Source: Opitutaceae bacterium (lineage in GTDB: Bacteria; Verrucomicrobiota; Verrucomicrobiia; Opitutales; Opitutaceae). Taken from it: a stretch of DNA of 10,920 nucleotides. The stretch lies in contig JAIRTK010000216.1 of the NCBI GenBank assembly GCA_031254955.1, positions 1 through 10,920 of the forward strand, read 5' to 3'. The position numbers were made by a program, and so were the translations under genes. Numbering within the stretch: position 1 is the first letter of the stretch; every line of letters begins with the position of its first letter. The notes beneath the pieces are model-generated. The model did no database searches, was not told the origin of the DNA, and saw nothing but the letters and a program-made list of their open reading frames with translations. Shown piece by piece: positions 643-10,417 of this stretch.

Positions 643-799
643 ATCATGCCGCCTTGGTCGCGGCTCTTCGCGTTATTCGCGGCTGACGCTCTTGTCGGCA
701 AAATCGGCTTCCCCCTCAGCCAGCTACTCGCGGCTCTTCGCAGCATTCGCGATTGGCGCATCATGCCGCCCTAGTCGCGGCTTTTCGCGTCATTCGCGG
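643..799. repeat. three copies of a short dispersed repeat
   Basis: The 40-base copies at 643-682 and 760-799 agree at 36 of 40 positions. A third, shorter copy of the core (tcgcggctcttcgc..attcgcg) lies at about 725-751. The last copy overlaps the 3' end of the minus-strand regulator gene and supplies its final residues and stop codon. Spacing is uneven and the copies diverge, so this is not a CRISPR array. Confidence 0.8.
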
Positions 800-1571
800 T
801 GGACGCCGGGCAGACCAAGGTTCGCACGCCGTGCCGGCGCAGCATCGCCGGGATGCCCGCGGGCGGGCGCTTGTCGGTGATGAGGGCGTCGAGCCGGCGC
901 GGATGCAGGGTGACGGCGGCGGAGCGACGGGCGAATTTGCCCGCGTCGAGCAGCAGGACGACACGGCGCGAGATGGCGGCGAGGGCGCGCTTGGCCTCGA
1001 TTTCAAGCGGGTTGGGGTCGCTGGGGCCGACTTCGCGGTCGAAGGCCGTCGCGCTGATGAAACACACGGAGGCGGCGAGCCGTCCGATTTCGCGGAGCGC
1101 GTCGGGGCCGGTCATGTTGCCGGAAACGGTGCTCAGCCAGCCGCCGATCACGCGCACCGCGAGCGCGGGGCGGCGGAGCCGCAGGCGCTGCGCGACGGGC
1201 AGGCTGTTGGTCACGATGGAGACCTGGGATTCCGGGAGGTGGTCGATGATGGCGGCGACGGTCGTGCCGCCTTCAAGCGCGACGGTGTCGCCGGCGCGGA
1301 CAAACTCCCGCACGGCGCGCGCGGCGATGCGTTGTTTCGCCGCCGCCGCCGCGTCGCTTTTCATCTCGAAGTCCGGCTCGCCGGCGGCCAGCGCCGCCGG
1401 GCGCGCGCCGCCGCGCTCGCGGCGCAACAGGCCAAGCTCCTCCAGCAGGCGCAGGTCGCGCCACACGGTCATGGCGGTGACGCCCAGCTCGCGGCGCAAG
1501 GCGGACGCGGCGACGCGGCCCCGGTCGCGAAGCAGGGAGAGGATGCGCTGGTGGCGGGTCGAGGCGGGCAT
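771..1571 (-). CDS. DeoR-family sugar-responsive transcriptional regulator
   Basis: The protein has 266 residues, a usual length for DeoR repressors. Residues about 1-55 form the DeoR winged helix-turn-helix: QRILSLLRDRG, then VTAMTVWRDLRLLEELGLLRR and a GG turn, matching the family pattern TxxRDLxxLxxxGxxxRxxGG, although the usual RRDL reads WRDL. Residues about 75-240 are the sugar-phosphate sensor domain, with EGGTT near 100-104, VTNSLPVA near 120-127, VIGGWLS, VLLLDAGKF and ALITDKRPP. Family members usually repress sugar genes and are released by a phosphorylated sugar. The gene diverges from the kinase with 74 bases between the start codons, so control of itself and the kinase is likely. 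The last ten residues and the TAG stop lie in a dispersed repeat. No Shine-Dalgarno precedes the ATG. Confidence 0.93.
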   Translation of the reverse strand: MPASTRHQRILSLLRDRGRVAASALRRELGVTAMTVWRDLRLLEELGLLRRERGGARPAALAAGEPDFEMKSDAAAAAKQRIAARAVREFVRAGDTVALEGGTTVAAIIDHLPESQVSIVTNSLPVAQRLRLRRPALAVRVIGGWLSTVSGNMTGPDALREIGRLAASVCFISATAFDREVGPSDPNPLEIEAKRALAAISRRVVLLLDAGKFARRSAAVTLHPRRLDALITDKRPPAGIPAMLRRHGVRTLVCPASTANDAKSRD

Positions 1572-1605
1572 GTTATATTGGGCGGTAAATGTTATAAAAT
1601 GTTAT
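1570..1605 (+). promoter_or_regulatory. three phased ATGTTAT boxes, likely DeoR operator
   Basis: The heptamer ATGTTAT occurs at 1570-1576, 1589-1595 and 1599-1605, with start-to-start distances of 19 and 10 bases, about two and one helical turns, so all three face the same side of the DNA. The first overlaps the start codon of the regulator gene. This AT-rich island sits in an otherwise very GC-rich region, and TATAAAAT-like sequence here could serve as a -10 element. DeoR-family proteins often bind repeated TGTTA-type boxes. Operator function is inferred from position, repetition and phasing. Confidence 0.65.
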
Positions 1606-1638
1606 TTCGCTCGCCTTGCCGGTCCCGGCAAGCGAAAT
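1604..1638 (+). promoter_or_regulatory. leader hairpin before the kinase start codon
   Basis: ATTTCGC at 1604-1610 can pair with GCGAAAT at 1632-1638, and TTGCCG at 1616-1621 with CGGCAA at 1626-1631 around a GTCC loop, leaving a five-base bulge (1611-1615). The structure ends seven bases before the ATG at 1646, and covers the place where a ribosome site would be. It has no following T tract, so it is not a terminator. It may modulate translation or RNA stability. The first arm overlaps the third ATGTTAT box. Confidence 0.5.
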
Positions 1639-1645
1639 CCCCGGC

Positions 1646-2626
1646 ATGTCCTGGTATCTCGGCATTGATGGCGGGGGAACGCGCACGCGCGCGGTGGTCG
1701 TGTCGTCCGATGGCGTCGCCGCCGGCGCGGGCGGGGCGGGTCCGTCGAATTATCACAACACCGGCATGGAGACCGCGGCGCGGAACCTGCGCGCCGCGGC
1801 GGACGCGGCCTGGGCGGACGCCGGCCTGAAGGCGCGCCCGGCGGAGCACGCGTTTCTCGGGTGCGCCGGCGTGAAGGCGCGCGGCGACATGCTGCGCGTG
1901 CGCGCGGCGGCGGAGTCGGCGGGGCTGGCGCCCGCCGGCGCGGTCACGGTGATGAATGATTTATACAACGCCCACGCGGGCGGGCTTCGGGGCGAGGCCG
2001 GGGTGGCGCTCATCGCGGGCACGGGGACAAACTGCCTCGGCATCGACCGCGCGGGCGGGGCCTTCATGTGCGGCGGCTGGGGCTGGCTGCTTGACGACGA
2101 GGGCGGGGCGTTCGGCCTCGCGCTCAACGCGTTGCGGACGGCGGCGCGAGTGGCCGACAAGCGGGCGGCGGACACGCGCCTGCTGCCTGCCGCGATGGCG
2201 TTTCTGGGGCTTTCCGAGCCGGACGACATGCTGGCGCGCTTCTACGCGCAGCCGTGGACGCCGGCGGAGATCGCCGCCTTCGCGCCGGTGGTCACGCGCC
2301 TGGCGTCCGAGGGCGACGCGACCGCGCACCGCCTGCTCGTGGCGGGCGCGCGCGCGCTGGCGGGCCTGGTGGCGGGCGCGAGCCGGGCGCTGGTGTTTCC
2401 GCGCGGCCCGCAGGTCGTGCTGCTCGGAAGCTGCGCGCGGGGCGGCGCCCCCTATCAGCCGCTCATCGAGGCGGAAATCCGCAAGCTCTGCCCGTCGGCC
2501 CGCATCGTCGAACCCAAGGGCGGCACGTTGCACGGGGCGGCGCTCAACGCCCTCCGGGCGGGCGGCGTCATCCCGCCGCCGCCGCTGGATTTCTCAAAAA
2601 TAACCCAAAACGGGGAGGCGGCCTGA
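1646..2626 (+). CDS. BadF/BadG-family sugar kinase (N-acetylglucosamine kinase-like)
   Basis: The protein has 326 residues and the ASKHA kinase fold of the BadF/BadG/BcrA/BcrD family, which includes N-acetylglucosamine kinase. The phosphate-1 loop is IDGGGTRT (7-14), the likely catalytic aspartate is in MNDLYNAHAG (D105), phosphate-2 is AGTGTN (124-129), followed by GGWGWLLDDEGGAFGLA (143-159), and the C-terminal nucleotide-binding part has VVLLGSCARGG and GGTLHGAALNAL. It should phosphorylate a sugar with ATP in the cytoplasm; a hexosamine or glucose is likely but the substrate cannot be read from the sequence. I chose the ATG at 1646, which puts DGGGT at residue 8; a TTG at 1616 would add ten residues encoded by the leader hairpin. 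The tail PPPPLDFSKITQNGEAA lies beyond the fold. Codons end mostly in G, unlike the glycosidase genes downstream. No clear Shine-Dalgarno. Confidence 0.92.
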   Translation: MSWYLGIDGGGTRTRAVVVSSDGVAAGAGGAGPSNYHNTGMETAARNLRAAADAAWADAGLKARPAEHAFLGCAGVKARGDMLRVRAAAESAGLAPAGAVTVMNDLYNAHAGGLRGEAGVALIAGTGTNCLGIDRAGGAFMCGGWGWLLDDEGGAFGLALNALRTAARVADKRAADTRLLPAAMAFLGLSEPDDMLARFYAQPWTPAEIAAFAPVVTRLASEGDATAHRLLVAGARALAGLVAGASRALVFPRGPQVVLLGSCARGGAPYQPLIEAEIRKLCPSARIVEPKGGTLHGAALNALRAGGVIPPPPLDFSKITQNGEAA

Positions 2627-2762
2627 CCGCGCGCAACGCCCCCCTCTCTCTCGTCGCCACCGCGCAATCCACGCAGTTATCCGCATTGACCGGCCCGCGC
2701 CTCCCGACGCGCGCGCGGCCTCTCCGAAAAAAAACCAACAACCCGAAAAACCCAATCCCGCC
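2627..2762 (+). other. kinase-glycosidase spacer with GC hairpin
   Basis: This 136-base gap has no gene. An imperfect GC-rich inverted repeat (ggcccgcgc at 2692-2700 against gcgcgcgcggcc at 2709-2720) is followed by an A-rich, not T-rich, stretch (2727-2755), so it does not look like a rho-independent terminator. It may be part of the leader of the next gene. The ATG at 2763 is preceded by A- and C-rich sequence with no Shine-Dalgarno. Confidence 0.4.
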
Positions 2763-5057
2763 ATGACTCCCCCATGCACCGCGCACCGCATCATCCTGAT
2801 GGCATTTTTTTCAGCCATCAGTCTTTCCGCCCCTCAACCCGTTTGCGCCGCCGCCGGCACGCCGCCGGACGCCGCCTGGACGCCGCCGCGCTCCGTTGAC
2901 TACCGCTTCGCGCCCGCCTGGCACCAGTCCCTCATCGGCCTGCCCGACGACACCTGCAAAACCCTCGTCGGCCCGCTCGGCCAGCTTCTCCTCGGATACG
3001 TCAACGACAGCGACGGCCAGCCGCTCTTCAACTTTCAACCGCGCCCGCGCCGCGGCTACCTCGCCACCGCGCATTTTCTCGCCGACGAAAACCAGCGCTT
3101 CACCGGCCAGCGTCTGCATTCCGCGCGCGTTCCCGTCGTGATCACCACCGCGGTTTGCGCCGGACTCGACATCACGCAAGAGACATTCGCCAACGCCGCC
3201 GCCTTGTCCGCCAACGCCGATCCCGCCGCCGCCGGCGACCGCGAGGACATCATCCTCACCACCATCCGCAACCCCGCCGCCGCCGCTGTCACCATCCGCC
3301 CCGTCCTCGTCATCAACACCCGCCCGCCCTCCGGGAAAAAAGACGCGCCCGCCGCGCGGACCGCCGTCTCGGGCCGCGTCGCCACGCTGCCGGACGGCGC
3401 GCGCCTCGTCGCCTCGCTTGAGCCGGCGCGCGTCCGCCGCAACCTCTCCGCCTTCAAGACACTCGTCGAGTTCGCGCCGCTCACCCTCGCCCCAGGCGAA
3501 ACCCGCCGCGTCTTTGTTGTGCACGACAACGCCCGCCCCTCGCTCCTCGCCGACGCCCTCGCCACCACCACCAGCGCCACCACCACCGGCGCCGCCGTCG
3601 CCGCCGTTGCCGACCCCGCCGAACTGCGCGACCGCATGGTCGCCTTCTGGCAAAACCACCCCGGCATCCCCTACGGCCGCGTCACCGTGCCCGACCCCGA
3701 AATCCAAAACCTCATCGACGCCTCCCTGCGCGGCATCTGGCAGGCGCGCGAAATCAAGGACGGCAAATTCTGCTTCCAAGTCGGCCCCACCTGCTATCGC
3801 GGCCTCTGGATCGCCGACGGCGCCACCCTCCTCGAAACCGCCACCCTGTTCGACCGCGCCGCCGACGCCCGCGACGGCGTCATGCACACGCTCTCCCGGC
3901 AGCAACCCGACGGCAGCTTCGAAGTCATCAAAAAATTCTGGAAAGAAAACGGCCTCGTCCTCTGGACCTGCGTCCGCCACGCGCGCCTCTCGCAGGACAA
4001 AGCCTGGCTCGAATCCGTCTGGCCTCGCCTCCAGAAAACCGCCGCCATCATCAAAAAACTCCGCGCCGACACGCTCGCCAACGACACGCCGCTCGACGAC
4101 GGCCTCATCCCGCCCGGCTTCATTGACGGCGGCCTGACCGGACGGGAGCACACCGGCGACCGCGACAAACAAGCCCCCGAATACTCCAACATTTACTGGA
4201 ACCTCGCCGGCCTCAAAGCCCTCGCCTCCGCCGCGCGCTGGCTCGGCAAAAACGACGAAGCCGCCGCGCTCGAAGCCGACTATGACGACTTCTTCGCCGC
4301 CTTCCAAAAAGCCGCGCGACGCGACCTCGCCGTTGACGACTTTGGCAACCGCTACCTGCCGACCGTGATGACACCGGAATGGCGCGACCCGCTCCCGCAA
4401 CGCGCGCAATGGGCGTTTTGCCAAGCCGTGTATCCCGGCCAGATTTTCTCCCCGGACGATCCCGTCGCCAACGGCACGCTCGCCATGCTCCACACCACGC
4501 TGCACCAAGGCATGGTCATGGGCACCGGCTGGATCGACTACGGCATCTGGGCCTACTTCGCCGGCTTCTACGGACACGCCTGCCTCTGGACCGGCGAACC
4601 CGGACGCGCCGCCGACGCACTCTACGCCTTCGCCAACCACGCCTCGCCGCTCTACGCCTGGCGCGAGGAACACCCGCCGCGCGACTACCAGCCCGACCTC
4701 TACATCGGCGACATGCCGCACAACTGGGCCAGCGCGCTTTTCGCCGAACTCGCCGTCCACCTCGTCGCCCTCGACCGCGGCGACGAACTGCACCTCCTTG
4801 AAGGCATCCCCGCCGAATGGCTCCGCCCCGGCATGGAAACGCGCCTCGACCGCATCGCCACGCCCTTCGGCCCACTCACGCTCGCCCTGCGCGTCAACGC
4901 CGCCGGCGACACCGCCGCGCTGACCGTCGCCCCGCTCGCCGACACATCCTGCAAGGCCCTCGTCGTCCACGCCCCCGCGCGCCCCGGCGCCCCCGCGCCC
5001 CCGCCCGTCCGCCTCGACCCCCGCCGCGCCAACACGCTCCCGCTCCCGCTGCGCTGA
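2763..5057 (+). CDS. secreted (alpha/alpha)6-barrel glycosidase, family unassigned
   Basis: The protein has 764 residues. A signal peptide is visible: HR at 8-9, hydrophobic IILMAFFSAISLS at 10-22, and likely cleavage around VCA-AAG (27-32). Residues about 45-285 read as an N-terminal beta-sandwich. Residues about 300-670 have the helical-hairpin layout of six-hairpin glycosidases, with aromatic and acidic motifs RGLWIADGATLLETATLF (346-363), QQPDGSFEVI, FWKENGLVLW (392-401), EYSNIYWNLAGLKALASAA, GTGWIDYGIWAYFAGF (587-602) and MPHNWASALFAE (651-662). A small C-terminal beta region follows. It should hydrolyse a glycan outside the cytoplasm. D352, E395 and D592 are candidate active-site acids, but I cannot assign a GH family or substrate. 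It lies 136 bases after the kinase and 20 before the isomerase, so it is probably co-transcribed at least with the latter. Codons strongly favour C-ending (and GAA, AAA) forms. Confidence 0.85.
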   Translation: MTPPCTAHRIILMAFFSAISLSAPQPVCAAAGTPPDAAWTPPRSVDYRFAPAWHQSLIGLPDDTCKTLVGPLGQLLLGYVNDSDGQPLFNFQPRPRRGYLATAHFLADENQRFTGQRLHSARVPVVITTAVCAGLDITQETFANAAALSANADPAAAGDREDIILTTIRNPAAAAVTIRPVLVINTRPPSGKKDAPAARTAVSGRVATLPDGARLVASLEPARVRRNLSAFKTLVEFAPLTLAPGETRRVFVVHDNARPSLLADALATTTSATTTGAAVAAVADPAELRDRMVAFWQNHPGIPYGRVTVPDPEIQNLIDASLRGIWQAREIKDGKFCFQVGPTCYRGLWIADGATLLETATLFDRAADARDGVMHTLSRQQPDGSFEVIKKFWKENGLVLWTCVRHARLSQDKAWLESVWPRLQKTAAIIKKLRADTLANDTPLDDGLIPPGFIDGGLTGREHTGDRDKQAPEYSNIYWNLAGLKALASAARWLGKNDEAAALEADYDDFFAAFQKAARRDLAVDDFGNRYLPTVMTPEWRDPLPQRAQWAFCQAVYPGQIFSPDDPVANGTLAMLHTTLHQGMVMGTGWIDYGIWAYFAGFYGHACLWTGEPGRAADALYAFANHASPLYAWREEHPPRDYQPDLYIGDMPHNWASALFAELAVHLVALDRGDELHLLEGIPAEWLRPGMETRLDRIATPFGPLTLALRVNAAGDTAALTVAPLADTSCKALVVHAPARPGAPAPPPVRLDPRRANTLPLPLR

Positions 5058-5077
5058 ACCTTCCCAACAAAACCACC

Positions 5078-5710
5078 ATGACAACCGGCAACACCAACCA
5101 CCCACCGCCGCCATGCCCGCTCGCCTCAATTGCGCGCGACGACCTGTTTGTCCGCTACACGCTCGAATCGGCGCGACTCGGAAACCGCCCGATGGCCGAG
5201 CGGCGGCTGGCCGACCTGCGCGGCTGCTTCGCGGACGAAGCCGCGTTCGAGGCGGCGCTCGCGCGGGGCAATCCGCTTTTATACTCGGTAAGCTCGGTCG
5301 AGCCGGCGTCCGGCGACGGCCAGTTGCACTACGGGCTGGGCATTTTGCAGCCGGGAAAAATCGGCGCGGAATATTATATGACAAAAGGCCATGTGCACGC
5401 GCACCGCCCCGCCGCCGAAATATACATCGGACTCGCGGGCGAAGGCGCGATGCTGCTGGAGGACGAAGCCTCGGGTGAAAGCCGCCTGGTGCCGCTGACG
5501 GCGCATTCGGTGGTGTATGTGCCCGGCCGCACCGCGCACCGCACGGTGAACACCGGCGCCGCGCCGCTTGTGTACATCGGCGTCTACCCGTCCAACGCCG
5601 GGCACGACTACGCGCCCGTGGCCAGAAACAATTTCCGCCAAGCCGTCATCGAGCGCGACGGCAAACCCGTGCCCGTCCCGCGCTCGCGACTCCAGGGGAC
5701 TTCTAAATAA
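5078..5710 (+). CDS. cupin-type glucose-6-phosphate isomerase
   Basis: The protein has 210 residues and matches the archaeal-type phosphoglucose isomerase cupin family (PF06560), which interconverts glucose 6-phosphate and fructose 6-phosphate with a bound metal in the cytoplasm. The metal site is complete: KGHVHAHRPAAEIY supplies H105, H107 and E114, and VPGRTAHRTVN supplies H154. The spacing is almost that of the Pyrococcus furiosus enzyme. NAGHDY near 173-178 is also typical. About 20 extra N-terminal residues precede the core. I chose the ATG at 5078 because the open frame upstream is only the glycosidase gene read in another frame. It starts 20 bases after the glycosidase stop, indicating an operon. 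The last residues (GTSK) and the stop run through the left arm of an inverted repeat (5694-5704). No Shine-Dalgarno. Confidence 0.94.
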   Translation: MTTGNTNHPPPPCPLASIARDDLFVRYTLESARLGNRPMAERRLADLRGCFADEAAFEAALARGNPLLYSVSSVEPASGDGQLHYGLGILQPGKIGAEYYMTKGHVHAHRPAAEIYIGLAGEGAMLLEDEASGESRLVPLTAHSVVYVPGRTAHRTVNTGAAPLVYIGVYPSNAGHDYAPVARNNFRQAVIERDGKPVPVPRSRLQGTSK

Positions 5711-5880: not shown

Positions 5881-6010
5881 TTGATTTTCGTCACCCCGTC
5901 CCTGTGGACGACGCACGCAGTTGAAAATCACAAATCCCCAAATCCCCCAAAAGCCCAAATTCCGAAATCACAAAAAAGAGCGCGACCCGCCGCCGCCGCC
6001 CGCACACCGC
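5711..6010 (+). other. intergenic region before the fusion gene
   Basis: These 300 bases hold no gene. Most of 5711-5880 is the palindromic element. Then come a small hairpin, cgtcc-ctgt-ggacg (5898-5911), and an A/C-rich stretch at 5925-5977 in which AAATCACAAA occurs twice and AAATCCCC-like words recur, resembling a simple dispersed repeat. A promoter for the fusion gene may lie here, but I cannot identify one with confidence. The distance suggests the fusion gene has its own transcript, or depends on read-through. Confidence 0.45.
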
Positions 6011-9000
6011 ATGAAAACAAAACCATCCCGAAAACTCCCGTCCCCCCGGCTCCTCCTCCCGCTCCTCGCCCTTGCCGCCGCCGCACCCGCGTCTGCGCCC
6101 GCCGCTGCGTCTGCGCCCGCCGCCCCCACCGCGCCTGTCGCCACCGCGCCTGCCTCCGCCACACCCGCCGCCGCCGCCGCGCCCGCGCCCGACTTGCTCG
6201 TCTATTCCGGCTCGCCCGCCGGCGTCATGTCCGCCGTGGCCGCCGCCCGCAACGGCCTGCGCGTCGTGCTCGTCGAGATGCACAACCATGTCGGCGGCAT
6301 GATGGCAAGCGGCCTCATGGACACCGACGCCGGCGACGCCTCCACCATCTCCGGTCTCTCCGCCGAGTTTTTCCGACGCGTCCACGATTATTATCTCAAG
6401 ACCCACGGCAAAGACTCCATCGAATACAAACGCTGCCGTGGCGGCTACCACTTCGAGCCGCGCATCGCCGAGTTCATTTTCGGGCAAATGCTCTCCGAGG
6501 CGGGAGTCGTCGTTGTCAAAAACCACCGCTTCCTCTCCCTCACCCGGCGCCCCGGCGGCGGCATCGCCACCGCCACCTTCGAGCAAGTCGCCGCCACGCC
6601 CGCCGCCGCCCTTCCCGTCCCCCTCATCCCGCAAAAAACCCTCACCCTGGCCGCCGACCGCTTCATCGACGCCTCCTACGAAGGCGACCTCATGGCCGCC
6701 GCCGGCGTCCCTTGGACCGTCGGACGCGAGGCCCGCTCCCAATACGGCGAAACCCTCGCCGGCATCGCCGCCGACACCGACCCCGCCAAAATCGGACAGG
6801 CCGACCACCGCACCATGTCCTACAATTACCGCGTCACCCTGACCAACAAGCCGGGCAACACCGTCCCCTTCGCAAAGCCCGAACACTACGACCCGGCGCC
6901 GTTTGAAAAAATGTCCGGCACCGTCAATGCCATCAAAAACGGCCGGCGCGCCCGCTTCGTTGACCTCTACGTCGGCGCTGAAAAACGCGCCAACCCCAAC
7001 GACAAATATGACACCAACTGGTTCGACGACGGCGACTCCTCCAAAAACTACGCCGTCTCCGACTGGCCCGCGCGCGAAAAAATCGCGGCCCGCATCCGCG
7101 ACTACGCCCAATCCCAGCTCTACTACTACGCGACCCACCCCGGTTTCCCCCAAGCCTGGCGCGACGACGCCGCCGCTTGGGGGTATCCGAAAGACGAATA
7201 CACCGGCAACCGCCACTTCCCCTTCCAGCTCTATGTCCGCGAAGCCCGCCGCATGGTCGGCCTTCGCGTCCTCACCCAGCAGGACATCACCCAAACCCGC
7301 GCCCAGCCCGACGGCATCGCGACCGGCTCCTATGGCATTGATTGCAAAGTCGTCCGCTGGATTCAGCCCGACCCCAAAAAACCCCGCCTCCTCGACAACA
7401 CCCGCCACTACGTCCCCGCCCCCTACGACATCCCCTACGGCGTCCTCTGCCCGCCCGACCACCCCGGCCAACCCGGCAACCTCCTCGTCCCCCTCTGCTG
7501 CTCCGCCTCCCACGTCGCCTACTGCTCCCTGCGCATGGAACCCGTCTATATGATGCTCGGCCACGCCGCCGGCACCGCCGCCGCCCTCGCCCACCAACAA
7601 AAAATCCCCCAGCAAAAACTCGACCCCCAGACCCTCCGCGCCCGGCTCCGCAAAGAAAACGCCAGCCTCGACGACAACGAGCTCCCCGCCATCGCCATCA
7701 CGCACACCCCCGAGACCCCCATGCCCTCCGAACCCGTCGAATTTTCCCTGAAAATCCTCCGCCCCCTCCGCGACCCCATCGTCAAAATCGCATGGGATTT
7801 CAACGGCGACGGCGCTGTCGCCGCCACCACCGAAACCCCCGTCCACACCTTCACCCACGGCAAAATTTACCACGTCTCCCTCCTGGTCGAGGACGCCGCC
7901 GGACGCCAGCGGCTCGTCACGACCGACCTCTCCGTCGGCGACGCCGAAGCCACCGACTACTTCCTTGACGACGAGGAACCCCAGCTCGCCAACGGCGAAC
8001 TCACCGGACGCTGGCGCGCCAACTCCCCCCGCGGCGCCCGGCGCGACCGCAACCTCTGCTCCGGCCCCGGCTACCTCCGCGCCCTGAAAGACGCCCCCGC
8101 CGCCATCCGCTACGACTTCCACGGCATCGCCCCCGGCCGCTACCGCGTCGTCCACGGACAAGCCGCCGACACCGCCAACGCCGCCAACATCACCGCCACC
8201 ATCCGCATCCCCGGCAAACCCGACCGCGCTATCACCATTGACCAACGCGCCGCCCGCGGCACCCCCTTTCCCCGCCACCCCTTCGCCGGCATCTCCATTA
8301 CCGAAACCACCGACCTCTCCATCGAATTTTCCAACAAAAACGCCGACGGCAACCTCGTGACCGACGGCGTCCGCCTCATCTACATGGGCGAGCCTCGCCC
8401 CAAAAAAAGCGGAAGCGACGTCCCGCCGCTTTCCAACCCCCTCGCCCCCTCCATCCCCACCCCCGCTACCACCACCCCCGCCGCCGCCTCTCCCACCGCC
8501 GTCACCCCACCGCGCTACCACGGCATCCTCCGCGACCTCCCCCTCACCTCCATCCGCCCCGAAGGCTGGCTGCGCCAATTCTTCCAACGCCAGCGCGACG
8601 GCCTCGGCACCCACCACCGCCACTCCGGCTTCCCCTACGACTCCGACCTCTGGATCGGCCTCATCACCCCCGCCGCCTGGTCGCGCTACGAACAAACCGC
8701 CTTTCTCCTCGACGGCATCCACCGCGCCGCCGTCCTCCTGGACGACAAGGAATGGCAAAAAACCGGCCGCGCCAACGTCCGCTACGTCCTCGACCACCCG
8801 CAACCCGACGGCATCCTCGGCAAAACCGCCGCCGAGATGAACCTCACCCGCGAAAGCGGCTTCAGCCCCCGGCAATGGCCCTTCGCGGTCTTTTCCCGCG
8901 TCCTCTTTTCCGAATACGACGCCACCCGCGACCCCCGCATCCTCCAAAAACTCGCCACCCACTACCTCGCCCTCCCCGACACCCTCGGCGCATACTCCCG

Positions 9001-10417
9001 CGATGCCTCCAACATCGAAGGCATGGTCTGGCTCTATTTCAAAACCGGCGACCGCCGCCTCCTCGAAAAAGCCGCCGCCACCTACGCCAACTTTGAAAAA
9101 CACAACCCCTCCCGCGCCCGCGCCCGTTACCTCGCCGGCGCCCCCGTCAAAGGCCACGGCGCCATCGCCGCCGAAATGCTCGTCAACCCCGTCAACCTCT
9201 ACCTCGCCACCGGCGAAAAATCCCTCCTCGACGCCGCTCAAGCCGCCATCGCGACCCTCAATCAGGACGACCTCCTCCCCTCCTTCACCATCTCCTCCGC
9301 CGAAGACATCTCCGGCCACGCCCCCGAGCACGTCCACGAACTCTGCGCCCAAGTTGACCACACCTGGGTCCTCCAAAAACTCCTCCTCGCCACCGGCGAC
9401 GAACGCTACGCCGGCCAAATCGAAAAATCCGTCCTCAACGCCGGCCTCGGCTCCCTTTCAAAAGACTTCAAATCCCACCAATACTTCTCCGCCGCCAACC
9501 AGGCCGTCTCGACGCAAACCTCCTCGGCCATCGTCAAATTCGGCCCCGCCAACCTCGACCGCCAAGCCTACCGCCCCGGCCACACCGTCCAATGCTGCAC
9601 CGGCTCCGTCCACCGCATCCTCGCCAACTACGCCGGACAACTCTGGCTCGCCGAAAACGACACCACCCTCGTCGCGCCCCTCTACGCCCCCAACACCCTC
9701 ACGACAAAAATCGCCGGCGCCGAAGTCCGCATCCGCGAGGAAACCGATTATCCCTTCGACGGCAAAATCACCCTCCGCGTCGAGACCCCCGCCCCCGTCC
9801 GCTTCACCCTGAAACTCCGCATCCCCGCCTGGGCCGCCGGCGCGACCCTCCAAATCAACACCTCCCCGCCATCCCGCCTCCCCGCCCCCGCCTCTACCGC
9901 CGCCACCCCCGCCGCCGCCGGCGCCTACCACGCCCTCGACCGCGTCTTCGCCAACGGCGACACCATCACCCTCGACCTCCCCATGCGCCCCCGCATCACC
10001 CGCACGCAAGACAACGCCCTCGCCGTCATGCGCGGCCCGCTGCTCTACTCGCTCAAAATCCCCGAGCACGCCACCCCCCGCACCGGCCTCCGCCACACCA
10101 GCCCCGAATACCCCGCGTGGGACCTCACGCCCGCCGGCCCCTGGAACTACGCCCTCTCCGCCGCCGCCGCGCCGCGCATCCGCGTCCGCCCCAACCCCGC
10201 CGCCACGCGCGGCAGCTTCCCCTGGGACCTCGCCACGACCCCCGTCACGCTCGCGCTCCCCGCCCGCCGCGTCGAAAACTGGACGCTCACCCCCGACGGC
10301 AAAAACCCGCCGCTGCCCGCAGCCCCGCTCCTCCTCTCCGACAAAACGGAAATCATCGAACTCGTCCCCTACGGCGCCACGCGCCTCCGCTGGACCGTCT
10401 TCCCCGAGGCCCAATAA
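6011..10417 (+). CDS. exported FAD oxidoreductase / GH127-like glycosidase fusion
   Basis: One uninterrupted frame of 1468 residues. A signal peptide (basic 2-13, LLLPLLALAAAA 14-25) is followed by an Ala/Pro-rich linker to about 60. Residues 61-545 are an FAD-dependent oxidoreductase (PF12831 type): VYSGSPAGVMSAVAAA (64-79) is the dinucleotide loop, VGGMMASGL follows, and SASHVAYCSLRMEPVYMMLG (498-517) is the family's C-terminal signature. Residues about 560-645 look PKD-like (AWDFNGDG). Residues about 646-793 look like a golvesin-type beta domain. A Pro/Ser/Thr/Ala linker (795-837) leads to a GH127-like DUF1680 domain (838-1468), with E1110 and C1112 in HELCAQ and C1195-C1196 in QCCTGS, matching the zinc ligands and cysteine nucleophile of the bifidobacterial beta-L-arabinofuranosidase. 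The CCTG-VHR subgroup is less well characterised. Start chosen at ATG 6011, which begins the signal peptide; TTG 5921 would bury it. Substrates are unknown. Confidence 0.9.
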   Translation: MKTKPSRKLPSPRLLLPLLALAAAAPASAPAAASAPAAPTAPVATAPASATPAAAAAPAPDLLVYSGSPAGVMSAVAAARNGLRVVLVEMHNHVGGMMASGLMDTDAGDASTISGLSAEFFRRVHDYYLKTHGKDSIEYKRCRGGYHFEPRIAEFIFGQMLSEAGVVVVKNHRFLSLTRRPGGGIATATFEQVAATPAAALPVPLIPQKTLTLAADRFIDASYEGDLMAAAGVPWTVGREARSQYGETLAGIAADTDPAKIGQADHRTMSYNYRVTLTNKPGNTVPFAKPEHYDPAPFEKMSGTVNAIKNGRRARFVDLYVGAEKRANPNDKYDTNWFDDGDSSKNYAVSDWPAREKIAARIRDYAQSQLYYYATHPGFPQAWRDDAAAWGYPKDEYTGNRHFPFQLYVREARRMVGLRVLTQQDITQTRAQPDGIATGSYGIDCKVVRWIQPDPKKPRLLDNTRHYVPAPYDIPYGVLCPPDHPGQPGNLLVPLCCSASHVAYCSLRMEPVYMMLGHAAGTAAALAHQQKIPQQKLDPQTLRARLRKENASLDDNELPAIAITHTPETPMPSEPVEFSLKILRPLRDPIVKIAWDFNGDGAVAATTETPVHTFTHGKIYHVSLLVEDAAGRQRLVTTDLSVGDAEATDYFLDDEEPQLANGELTGRWRANSPRGARRDRNLCSGPGYLRALKDAPAAIRYDFHGIAPGRYRVVHGQAADTANAANITATIRIPGKPDRAITIDQRAARGTPFPRHPFAGISITETTDLSIEFSNKNADGNLVTDGVRLIYMGEPRPKKSGSDVPPLSNPLAPSIPTPATTTPAAASPTAVTPPRYHGILRDLPLTSIRPEGWLRQFFQRQRDGLGTHHRHSGFPYDSDLWIGLITPAAWSRYEQTAFLLDGIHRAAVLLDDKEWQKTGRANVRYVLDHPQPDGILGKTAAEMNLTRESGFSPRQWPFAVFSRVLFSEYDATRDPRILQKLATHYLALPDTLGAYSRDASNIEGMVWLYFKTGDRRLLEKAAATYANFEKHNPSRARARYLAGAPVKGHGAIAAEMLVNPVNLYLATGEKSLLDAAQAAIATLNQDDLLPSFTISSAEDISGHAPEHVHELCAQVDHTWVLQKLLLATGDERYAGQIEKSVLNAGLGSLSKDFKSHQYFSAANQAVSTQTSSAIVKFGPANLDRQAYRPGHTVQCCTGSVHRILANYAGQLWLAENDTTLVAPLYAPNTLTTKIAGAEVRIREETDYPFDGKITLRVETPAPVRFTLKLRIPAWAAGATLQINTSPPSRLPAPASTAATPAAAGAYHALDRVFANGDTITLDLPMRPRITRTQDNALAVMRGPLLYSLKIPEHATPRTGLRHTSPEYPAWDLTPAGPWNYALSAAAAPRIRVRPNPAATRGSFPWDLATTPVTLALPARRVENWTLTPDGKNPPLPAAPLLLSDKTEIIELVPYGATRLRWTVFPEAQ
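6089..6124 (+). repeat. 18-base in-frame tandem duplication
   Basis: Two adjacent 18-base copies (6089-6106 and 6107-6124) agree at 17 of 18 positions and encode ASAPAA twice in the Ala/Pro linker just after the signal peptide of the fusion protein. This is a small linker expansion that keeps the reading frame. Confidence 0.8.

Follow-up and report, generated by a model that had tools for sequence, protein, structure and literature searches.

GH127 cysteine glycosidases are the described enzymes closest to one half of the protein discussed here, a 1468-residue gene product that we refer to as P0001. In structural alignments, HypBA1, BT3674, BT_1003 and Ara127N show 18–20% identity to this half; unlike them, the GH127-like half of P0001 sits behind a flavoenzyme. 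The nucleophile of HypBA1 is Cys417 (PMC10728902), and a zinc site made of three cysteines and one glutamate is common to GH127 and GH146 (PMC10850190). The sugar contacts of HypBA1 are R273, H194, H142 and Y145. For the other half, which Pfam assigned to PF12831 and not to GMC or VAO-type domains, described relatives offer less. PF12831 has almost no presence in the open-licence literature searched, where a single paper contains the accession, and no PF12831-type carbohydrate oxidase was found there. Flavocytochrome c3, urocanate reductase and the FAD-binding protein 2i0z leave about half of the P0001 flavin domain (the substrate part) unmatched and, compared with this group, P0001 has no haem domain. 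Similarly, a sequence search of the PDB with the flavin-half profile gave no full-domain relative among the best 60 of 69 matches; what matched was the tail of xanthan lyase plus short segments, with Rossmann parts the best among the latter.

Closer relatives exist among uncharacterised proteins. Stand-alone exported PF12831 proteins (P0020–P0031 type) have, like P0001, an FAD domain followed by a golvesin domain, many of them with a called PKD domain, and share 43–48% identity with the corresponding part of P0001 (ten aligned). They differ from P0001 in having no GH127 half and in having His rather than Lys at position 446. In two further proteins, P0002 and P0003, a single chain likewise carries an FAD half, the beta modules and a GH127 half, and both share Ser66 with P0001; P0003 differs from P0001 in that an esterase lies between the halves, His446 is kept, and Ser occupies the position of Glu1098. 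A literature search for this fusion architecture, or for sugar-oxidising relatives, gave nothing usable in open-licence publications, a set outside which most subscription journals fall; as far as that literature goes, the architecture is undescribed.

The window analysed here is the whole of one contig (C125, 10,920 bp) from a fragmented genome (G000; 574 contigs, 68.7% complete). P0001 is encoded by an uninterrupted frame at 6011–10417 (+), with domains in the order PF12831 flavoprotein, PKD, xanthan-lyase-type (golvesin-like) beta domain, linker and GH127-fold domain (Table 1). Pfam domains and fold models confirm the central claim of a preliminary description of this DNA, namely that a single exported frame joins an FAD oxidoreductase to a GH127-like glycosidase. 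The frame extends upstream of the ATG, to a TTG at 5921; we chose the ATG at 6011 as the start because a signal-like leader follows directly. A long frame on the opposite strand (5891–9418, 1175 aa) runs across the fusion gene and has no Pfam match; the plus frame is the coding one. The DNA encoding the Ala/Pro/Thr stretch behind the signal peptide is repetitive (6089–6190). A scan of the window for RNA families, tRNAs, promoters and terminators yielded nothing useful.

Table 1. Features of the 10,920-bp window (nucleotide positions are those of the window; residue numbers are those of P0001).
Feature	Position	Strand	Basis
DeoR-family regulator, divergent to the cluster	771..1571	-	Pfam
BadF/BcrA-type sugar kinase-like protein	1616..2626	+	PF01869, E 4.8e-35
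764-aa protein, leader-like start, possible six-hairpin glycosidase	2763..5057	+	Sub-threshold Bac_rhamnosid6H match, E 0.18
Cupin-type glucose-6-phosphate isomerase, start estimated	5078..5710	+	PF06560, E 5.5e-30
Predicted Sec-type signal peptide, about residues 1-29	6011..6097	+	Sequence; cleavage site by eye
Ala/Pro/Thr low-complexity stretch behind the signal peptide	6098..6184	+	Sequence; missing from P0002 and P0003
PF12831 FAD-dependent oxidoreductase domain, residues 61-546	6191..7648	+	Pfam E 8.4e-90, profile 1-416/416
FAD-binding loop VYSGSPAGVMSAVAAA, residues 64-79	6200..6247	+	Sequence; Ser66 in three fusions, 0/121 other aligned domains
Lys446 codon	7346..7348	+	His in 122/124 aligned PF12831 domains
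Conserved C-terminal flavin motif, residues 498-517, invariant His501, Arg508, Glu510	7502..7561	+	Sequence, alignment
PKD domain, residues 557-634	7679..7912	+	PF18911 31.3 bits, cut-off 27
Beta domain of golvesin / xanthan-lyase C-terminal type, candidate module for glycan binding, about residues 640-794	7928..8392	+	Fold match
Pro/Thr/Ala linker, residues 795-836, fusion joint	8393..8518	+	Unaligned between fusions
GH127-like (alpha/alpha)6 plus beta-sandwich glycosidase, residues 837-1468	8519..10414	+	Pfam, model pLDDT 92, structural alignment
Glu1098, candidate acid/base	9302..9304	+	E in 53/56 of subfamily; adjoins HypBA1 Glu322 in alignment
Glu1110 and Cys1112, counterparts of Glu338 and Cys340 in HypBA1	9338..9346	+	56/56 of subfamily
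Cys1195 (nucleophile equivalent, HypBA1 Cys417) and Cys1196	9593..9598	+	56/56 of subfamily

The P0001 fusion is rare and real. A protein search identified P0002, encoded on another contig, with the same domain order and 62% identity over 96% of P0001, and P0003, in which the same parts flank a GDSL/SGNH esterase; Pfam confirms the parts of both. When the three fusions are aligned, both halves are conserved and the linker is not. A search for the same two-domain order elsewhere, suggested in the preliminary description, thus finds that the linkage recurs, in three proteins in all: the protein collection holds these two fusions besides P0001 among 7,991 candidates scored per search. An assembly error or frameshift as the source of the fusion is ruled out, since P0002 has the same order on another contig. 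The preliminary description had allowed for relatives encoded by two separate genes and a frame created by misassembly at the linker; separate genes do exist, and the fusion itself is real.

Searches of other genomes give the same picture of rarity at several levels. With P0001 as the query (E ≤ 1e-150), the window's own genome alone matched among 21 genomes of the family and 35 of the order (own included). With the GH127 half (E ≤ 1e-60), 12 genomes, the own one among them, matched out of 79 from the phylum, and the 13 matches outside the own genome are frames of 615–867 aa without a flavin domain. As had been expected, the two enzyme types are usually separate proteins: 12 of these 13 GH127-subfamily matches, spread over 11 other Verrucomicrobiota genomes, stand alone, and the 13th (G125, contig C26) starts at a contig end, so that its N-terminal side is uncovered. 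P0003 as the query (E ≤ 1e-90) matched 9 of 155 genomes, with both halves in one frame in the own genome only (at most three candidates scored per genome). Within the genus, all three genomes carry related FAD genes and the fusion was seen only in that of the window; completeness is 96% and 72% for the remaining two. A contig scan with the GH127 half (two peptide patterns) found two loci, neither fused. On contig C124 of the window's genome, a 132-aa frame (L058, 129–524) includes a segment with 62% identity to the C-terminal 81 residues of P0001; the frame starts 128 bases inside the contig, so that truncation at the contig end does not simply account for it, and it is perhaps the remnant of a second copy.

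How might such a chain have arisen? Stand-alone FAD relatives stop near the start of the P0001 linker in 8 of 10 inspected cases, the other two continuing for ~30 residues, and 9 of the 10 nearest GH127 relatives inspected by eye have a leader of their own. The exception, P0135, is the nearest GH127 relative of P0003; it begins inside the domain and is perhaps a fragment. The boundaries of these relatives are most simply read as the end-to-end joining of two complete exported proteins. Separate but neighbouring FAD and GH127 genes were sought as the ancestor of the fusion, and none was found at the 13 loci of the 11 other genomes; three of these loci (L041, L046 and L048) are shortened by contig ends, and the GH127 frame of L046 starts at one. 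The analysed surroundings of FAD genes in two further genomes (G277 and G297, where all frames were scanned), in the two other genus genomes (G001 and G002), and on contigs C149 and C547 of the own genome revealed no GH127 domain. In trees of each half, P0001 and P0002 group together. A single clade for the GH127 halves of all three fusions is rejected (AU p 9.95e-12, 20 rows), whereas a single clade for their FAD halves is not (AU p 0.186, 21 rows). Given also that Ser66 is common to the fusions, the trees point either to repeated joining of one FAD lineage or to an old fusion that has been split repeatedly. If the same FAD lineage did become attached to this GH127 subfamily several times, functional need would be indicated.

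The C-terminal half of P0001 has the GH127 fold, an (alpha/alpha)6 barrel with beta-sandwiches. In alignment with HypBA1, E1110, C1112, C1195 and C1196 face E338, C340, C417 and C418, i.e., the zinc site (three Cys and one Glu) is kept together with the Cys nucleophile. By contrast, none of the four substrate-binding residues of HypBA1 is kept, in a sequence-profile alignment that involves no superposed coordinates: Y145 faces W956 (W in 55/56), and H142, H194 and R273 face Pro953, about Ala999, and Ile1052, respectively. HypBA1 Glu322 aligns into a loop insertion beside the conserved Glu1098, and for this reason Glu1098 is the candidate, and probably the actual, acid/base. Because the zinc/nucleophile site is kept while the sugar-binding residues are replaced, this half is likely an active cysteine glycosidase whose substrate is probably not simply beta-L-arabinofuranose. 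The preliminary description was therefore right about a complete DUF1680/GH127-like domain, as fold and Zn/Cys site attest; the arabinofuranosidase label finds support only at the level of the family, H142, Y145, H194 and R273 being replaced. An aceric acid hydrolase assignment is not indicated either: the score against NCBIfam NF049879 is 96 bits, and the cut-off is 950.

Within the GH127 alignment, P0001 and P0002 depart together at K1058 (V), T1111 (L) and N1199 (S), columns conserved in 49–51 of the 54 others. In a control restricted to 95% columns, they have one departure in common, against two for each of two other pairs (of 12), and by this count the glycosidase half does not stand out. 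P0003 and P0135 have Ser at the position of Glu1098, and P0003 has Asp just before it.

Ahead of the fusion gene, the genes at 771–5710 likely form a sugar-use cluster, to judge from their predicted families, and the cluster looks like a fit to a degradative role. Its 764-aa protein (2763–5057), which has no Pfam or NCBIfam family at 0.01, is possibly an unclassified glycosidase.

The reading that we favour, tentatively, is that P0001 is one exported bifunctional enzyme in which the flavoenzyme oxidises and the cysteine glycosidase cleaves the same glycan, with the two steps coupled. The PKD and xanthan-lyase-type beta modules would dock P0001 on a polysaccharide; the PF12831 half would oxidise a hydroxyl group of a sugar to yield a keto-sugar or a comparable product; the GH127-type half would trim the same glycan by a retaining, thioglycosyl-enzyme mechanism; and the joining of the halves would couple oxidation to cleavage. 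The freed sugar would then be imported and used via the linked kinase and isomerase, with the DeoR regulator in control. That oxidation and hydrolysis act jointly on one glycan is plausible, on indirect support. Several observations count against this explanation: none of the 13 GH127-subfamily loci in other genomes has a PF12831 domain nearby, no GH127 domain lies in the analysed surroundings of other FAD genes, the candidate acid/base is Ser in P0003, the flavin half carries Lys446 in P0001 and P0002 and Ser66 in all three fusions, and the open-licence literature searched yielded no carbohydrate oxidase of PF12831 type.

Part of the indirect support comes from the company that PF12831 keeps. 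A profile search with the three fusions gave 157 matches; in a hand count from Pfam accessions, 41 of the best 120 of these 157 relatives, P0002 and P0003 included, have PF12831 fused to another glycan-type catalytic domain, a proportion that is no rate for the PF12831 family because the length filter, which admits proteins comparable in length to the queries, favours long, multi-domain ones (the shortest listed has 772 aa). Among these best 120 of 157, the 41 comprise 16 with glycosidase, lyase, BNR/sialidase-like or PF06439 domains, 22 with GDSL/SGNH esterases and 3 with sulfatases. A re-scan of 22 of the 41 confirmed all 22. P0099, whose only such domain is an accessory GH20, was excluded from the count, as were PhoPQ-type, peptidase, phosphatase and DUF partners. 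The partners span GH127, GH3, GH20, GH28, GH42, GH92, GH106, GH125, PL8, BNR, PF06439, PIG-L, sulfatase and esterase domains, and the flavin domain can lie on either side of its partner. P0014 and P0093, each of about 2200 aa, have the order GH92-FAD-GH125-PL8 in one chain. One further protein, P0030 (2723 aa), contains three PF12831 stretches with BNR repeat-like and N-acetylneuraminate epimerase domains.

Gene neighbourhoods echo one of these fusions. In all three genus genomes (L054 on C149 of G000, L056 in G001 and L057 in G002), a same-strand GH92 gene comes directly after an FAD-PKD-golvesin gene, and GH92 is fused to PF12831 in P0014, P0093, P0115 and P0117. Counting against such a pairing, the second FAD gene of G001 and the FAD gene on own contig C547 have no GH92 neighbour. 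The FAD genes of G277 and G297 lie near genes for esterase, peptidase, WD40 and cytochrome c-type proteins; in G297 (L078, about 9241–16004), three PF12831 genes stand in tandem on one strand. The other PF12831 fusions and the PF12831-GH92 pair thus lend indirect support to the idea that the exported flavoenzyme family may work with glycan-degrading enzymes.

A further link involves PF06439, named “3-keto-disaccharide hydrolase”: P0073 joins it to PF12831, and P0019, P0187, P0188, P0196 and P0198 join it to GH127-type domains. PF06439 has 12 matches in the own genome, and matches occur in 4 of the 14 control genomes as well. PF06439 may act merely as a glycan-binding domain in fusions. The triangle of PF12831, GH127 and PF06439 suggests keto-sugar chemistry.

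These same associations can be taken differently. Possibly, though we think it on the unlikely side, P0001 merely tethers two independent enzymes, which would have a signal peptide and docking module in common and attack different bonds of the same plant or microbial glycan with no chemical hand-over. The GH92-FAD-GH125-PL8 chains of P0014 and P0093 do look like activity bundling, the esterase inserted in P0003 fits bundling too, and the linkers are not conserved among the fusions. What tethering leaves unexplained is the frequent pairing of PF12831 with such enzymes and the fact that PF06439 is joined separately to each half.

The preliminary description had proposed a complete PF12831 domain with a dinucleotide loop at residues 64–79 and a signature at 498–517, and this is borne out: the match covers the whole profile at 302.5 bits (gathering 27), the AlphaFold2 model of residues 56–794 (pLDDT 88) has a flavoprotein fold, and P0001 has the Rossmann dinucleotide loop, the GG doublet and the C-terminal His/Arg/Glu (G71, G95, G96, H501, R508, E510). 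G95, G96, D220, D226, R239, E240, R274, R410, R413, R414, H501, R508 and E510 are identical in all 124 aligned flavin domains. That this half is a canonical family member finds no support at residue 446, a near-invariant position of the alignment rather than a curated family criterion, which is Lys in P0001 and P0002 only. Position 66 is Gly in 118 of the 121 non-fused domains. Where a column is at least 95% conserved among the remaining domains, P0001 and P0002 depart together three times (G to S, F to Y and H to K), and P0001 departs from 90% columns also at 68, 342, 373 and 397. Among 15 mutual nearest pairs of similar divergence, scored at the ≥95% columns, one pair shows four shared departures, P0001/P0002 three, three pairs one and ten pairs none; by this control, the shift is unusual but not unique in number.

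With His446 changed to Lys in P0001 and P0002, and Gly66 to Ser in the three fusions, redox chemistry may be changed or lost. In the extreme case, the FAD half would have no ordinary catalysis and serve as a structural or binding part, leaving the GH127-like half to work. The restriction of Lys446 to P0001 and P0002 and the departures listed above favour such a loss. We nevertheless consider it improbable: the retention of the residues common to all 124 domains, including both flavin motifs, implies continued selection, and P0003 keeps His446. Each fusion lineage has shifted at one near-invariant site (446 in P0001/P0002, 1098 in P0003), a pattern that fits new substrates as well as partial loss.

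NAD-dependent GH4 and GH109 enzymes carry out oxidation, cleavage by elimination and re-reduction in one cycle. That PF12831 is likewise a flavin-assisted glycosidase or lyase, needing no electron acceptor, would be compatible with an exported protein, the lack of an acceptor domain in P0001 and the many glycan-cleaving partners, but we know of no precedent, the cytochrome c-type genes near two stand-alone relatives could supply acceptors, and we regard the idea as very improbable.

Returning to the coupled oxidation and cleavage that we favour, a broader and more specific version can be formulated, to which we give rather little credence as it stands: exported PF12831 flavoproteins would be an undescribed carbohydrate-active class partnering glycosidases, lyases, esterases and sulfatases, and in P0001 an oxidised (e.g., 3-keto) sugar would be removed by a re-specialised GH127-type half, giving oxidise-then-cleave chemistry in one chain. 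P0001 lends itself well to testing, since a single chain that can be expressed and mutated half by half contains both putative steps and the docking module. The rare fusion is part of a wider pairing of the uncharacterised PF12831 family with many kinds of glycan-degrading enzyme. Should exported PF12831 proteins prove to be sugar oxidoreductases, many of the proteins secreted by glycan-degrading bacteria would gain a role, and the proteins fused to PF12831 would tell which bonds are being prepared.
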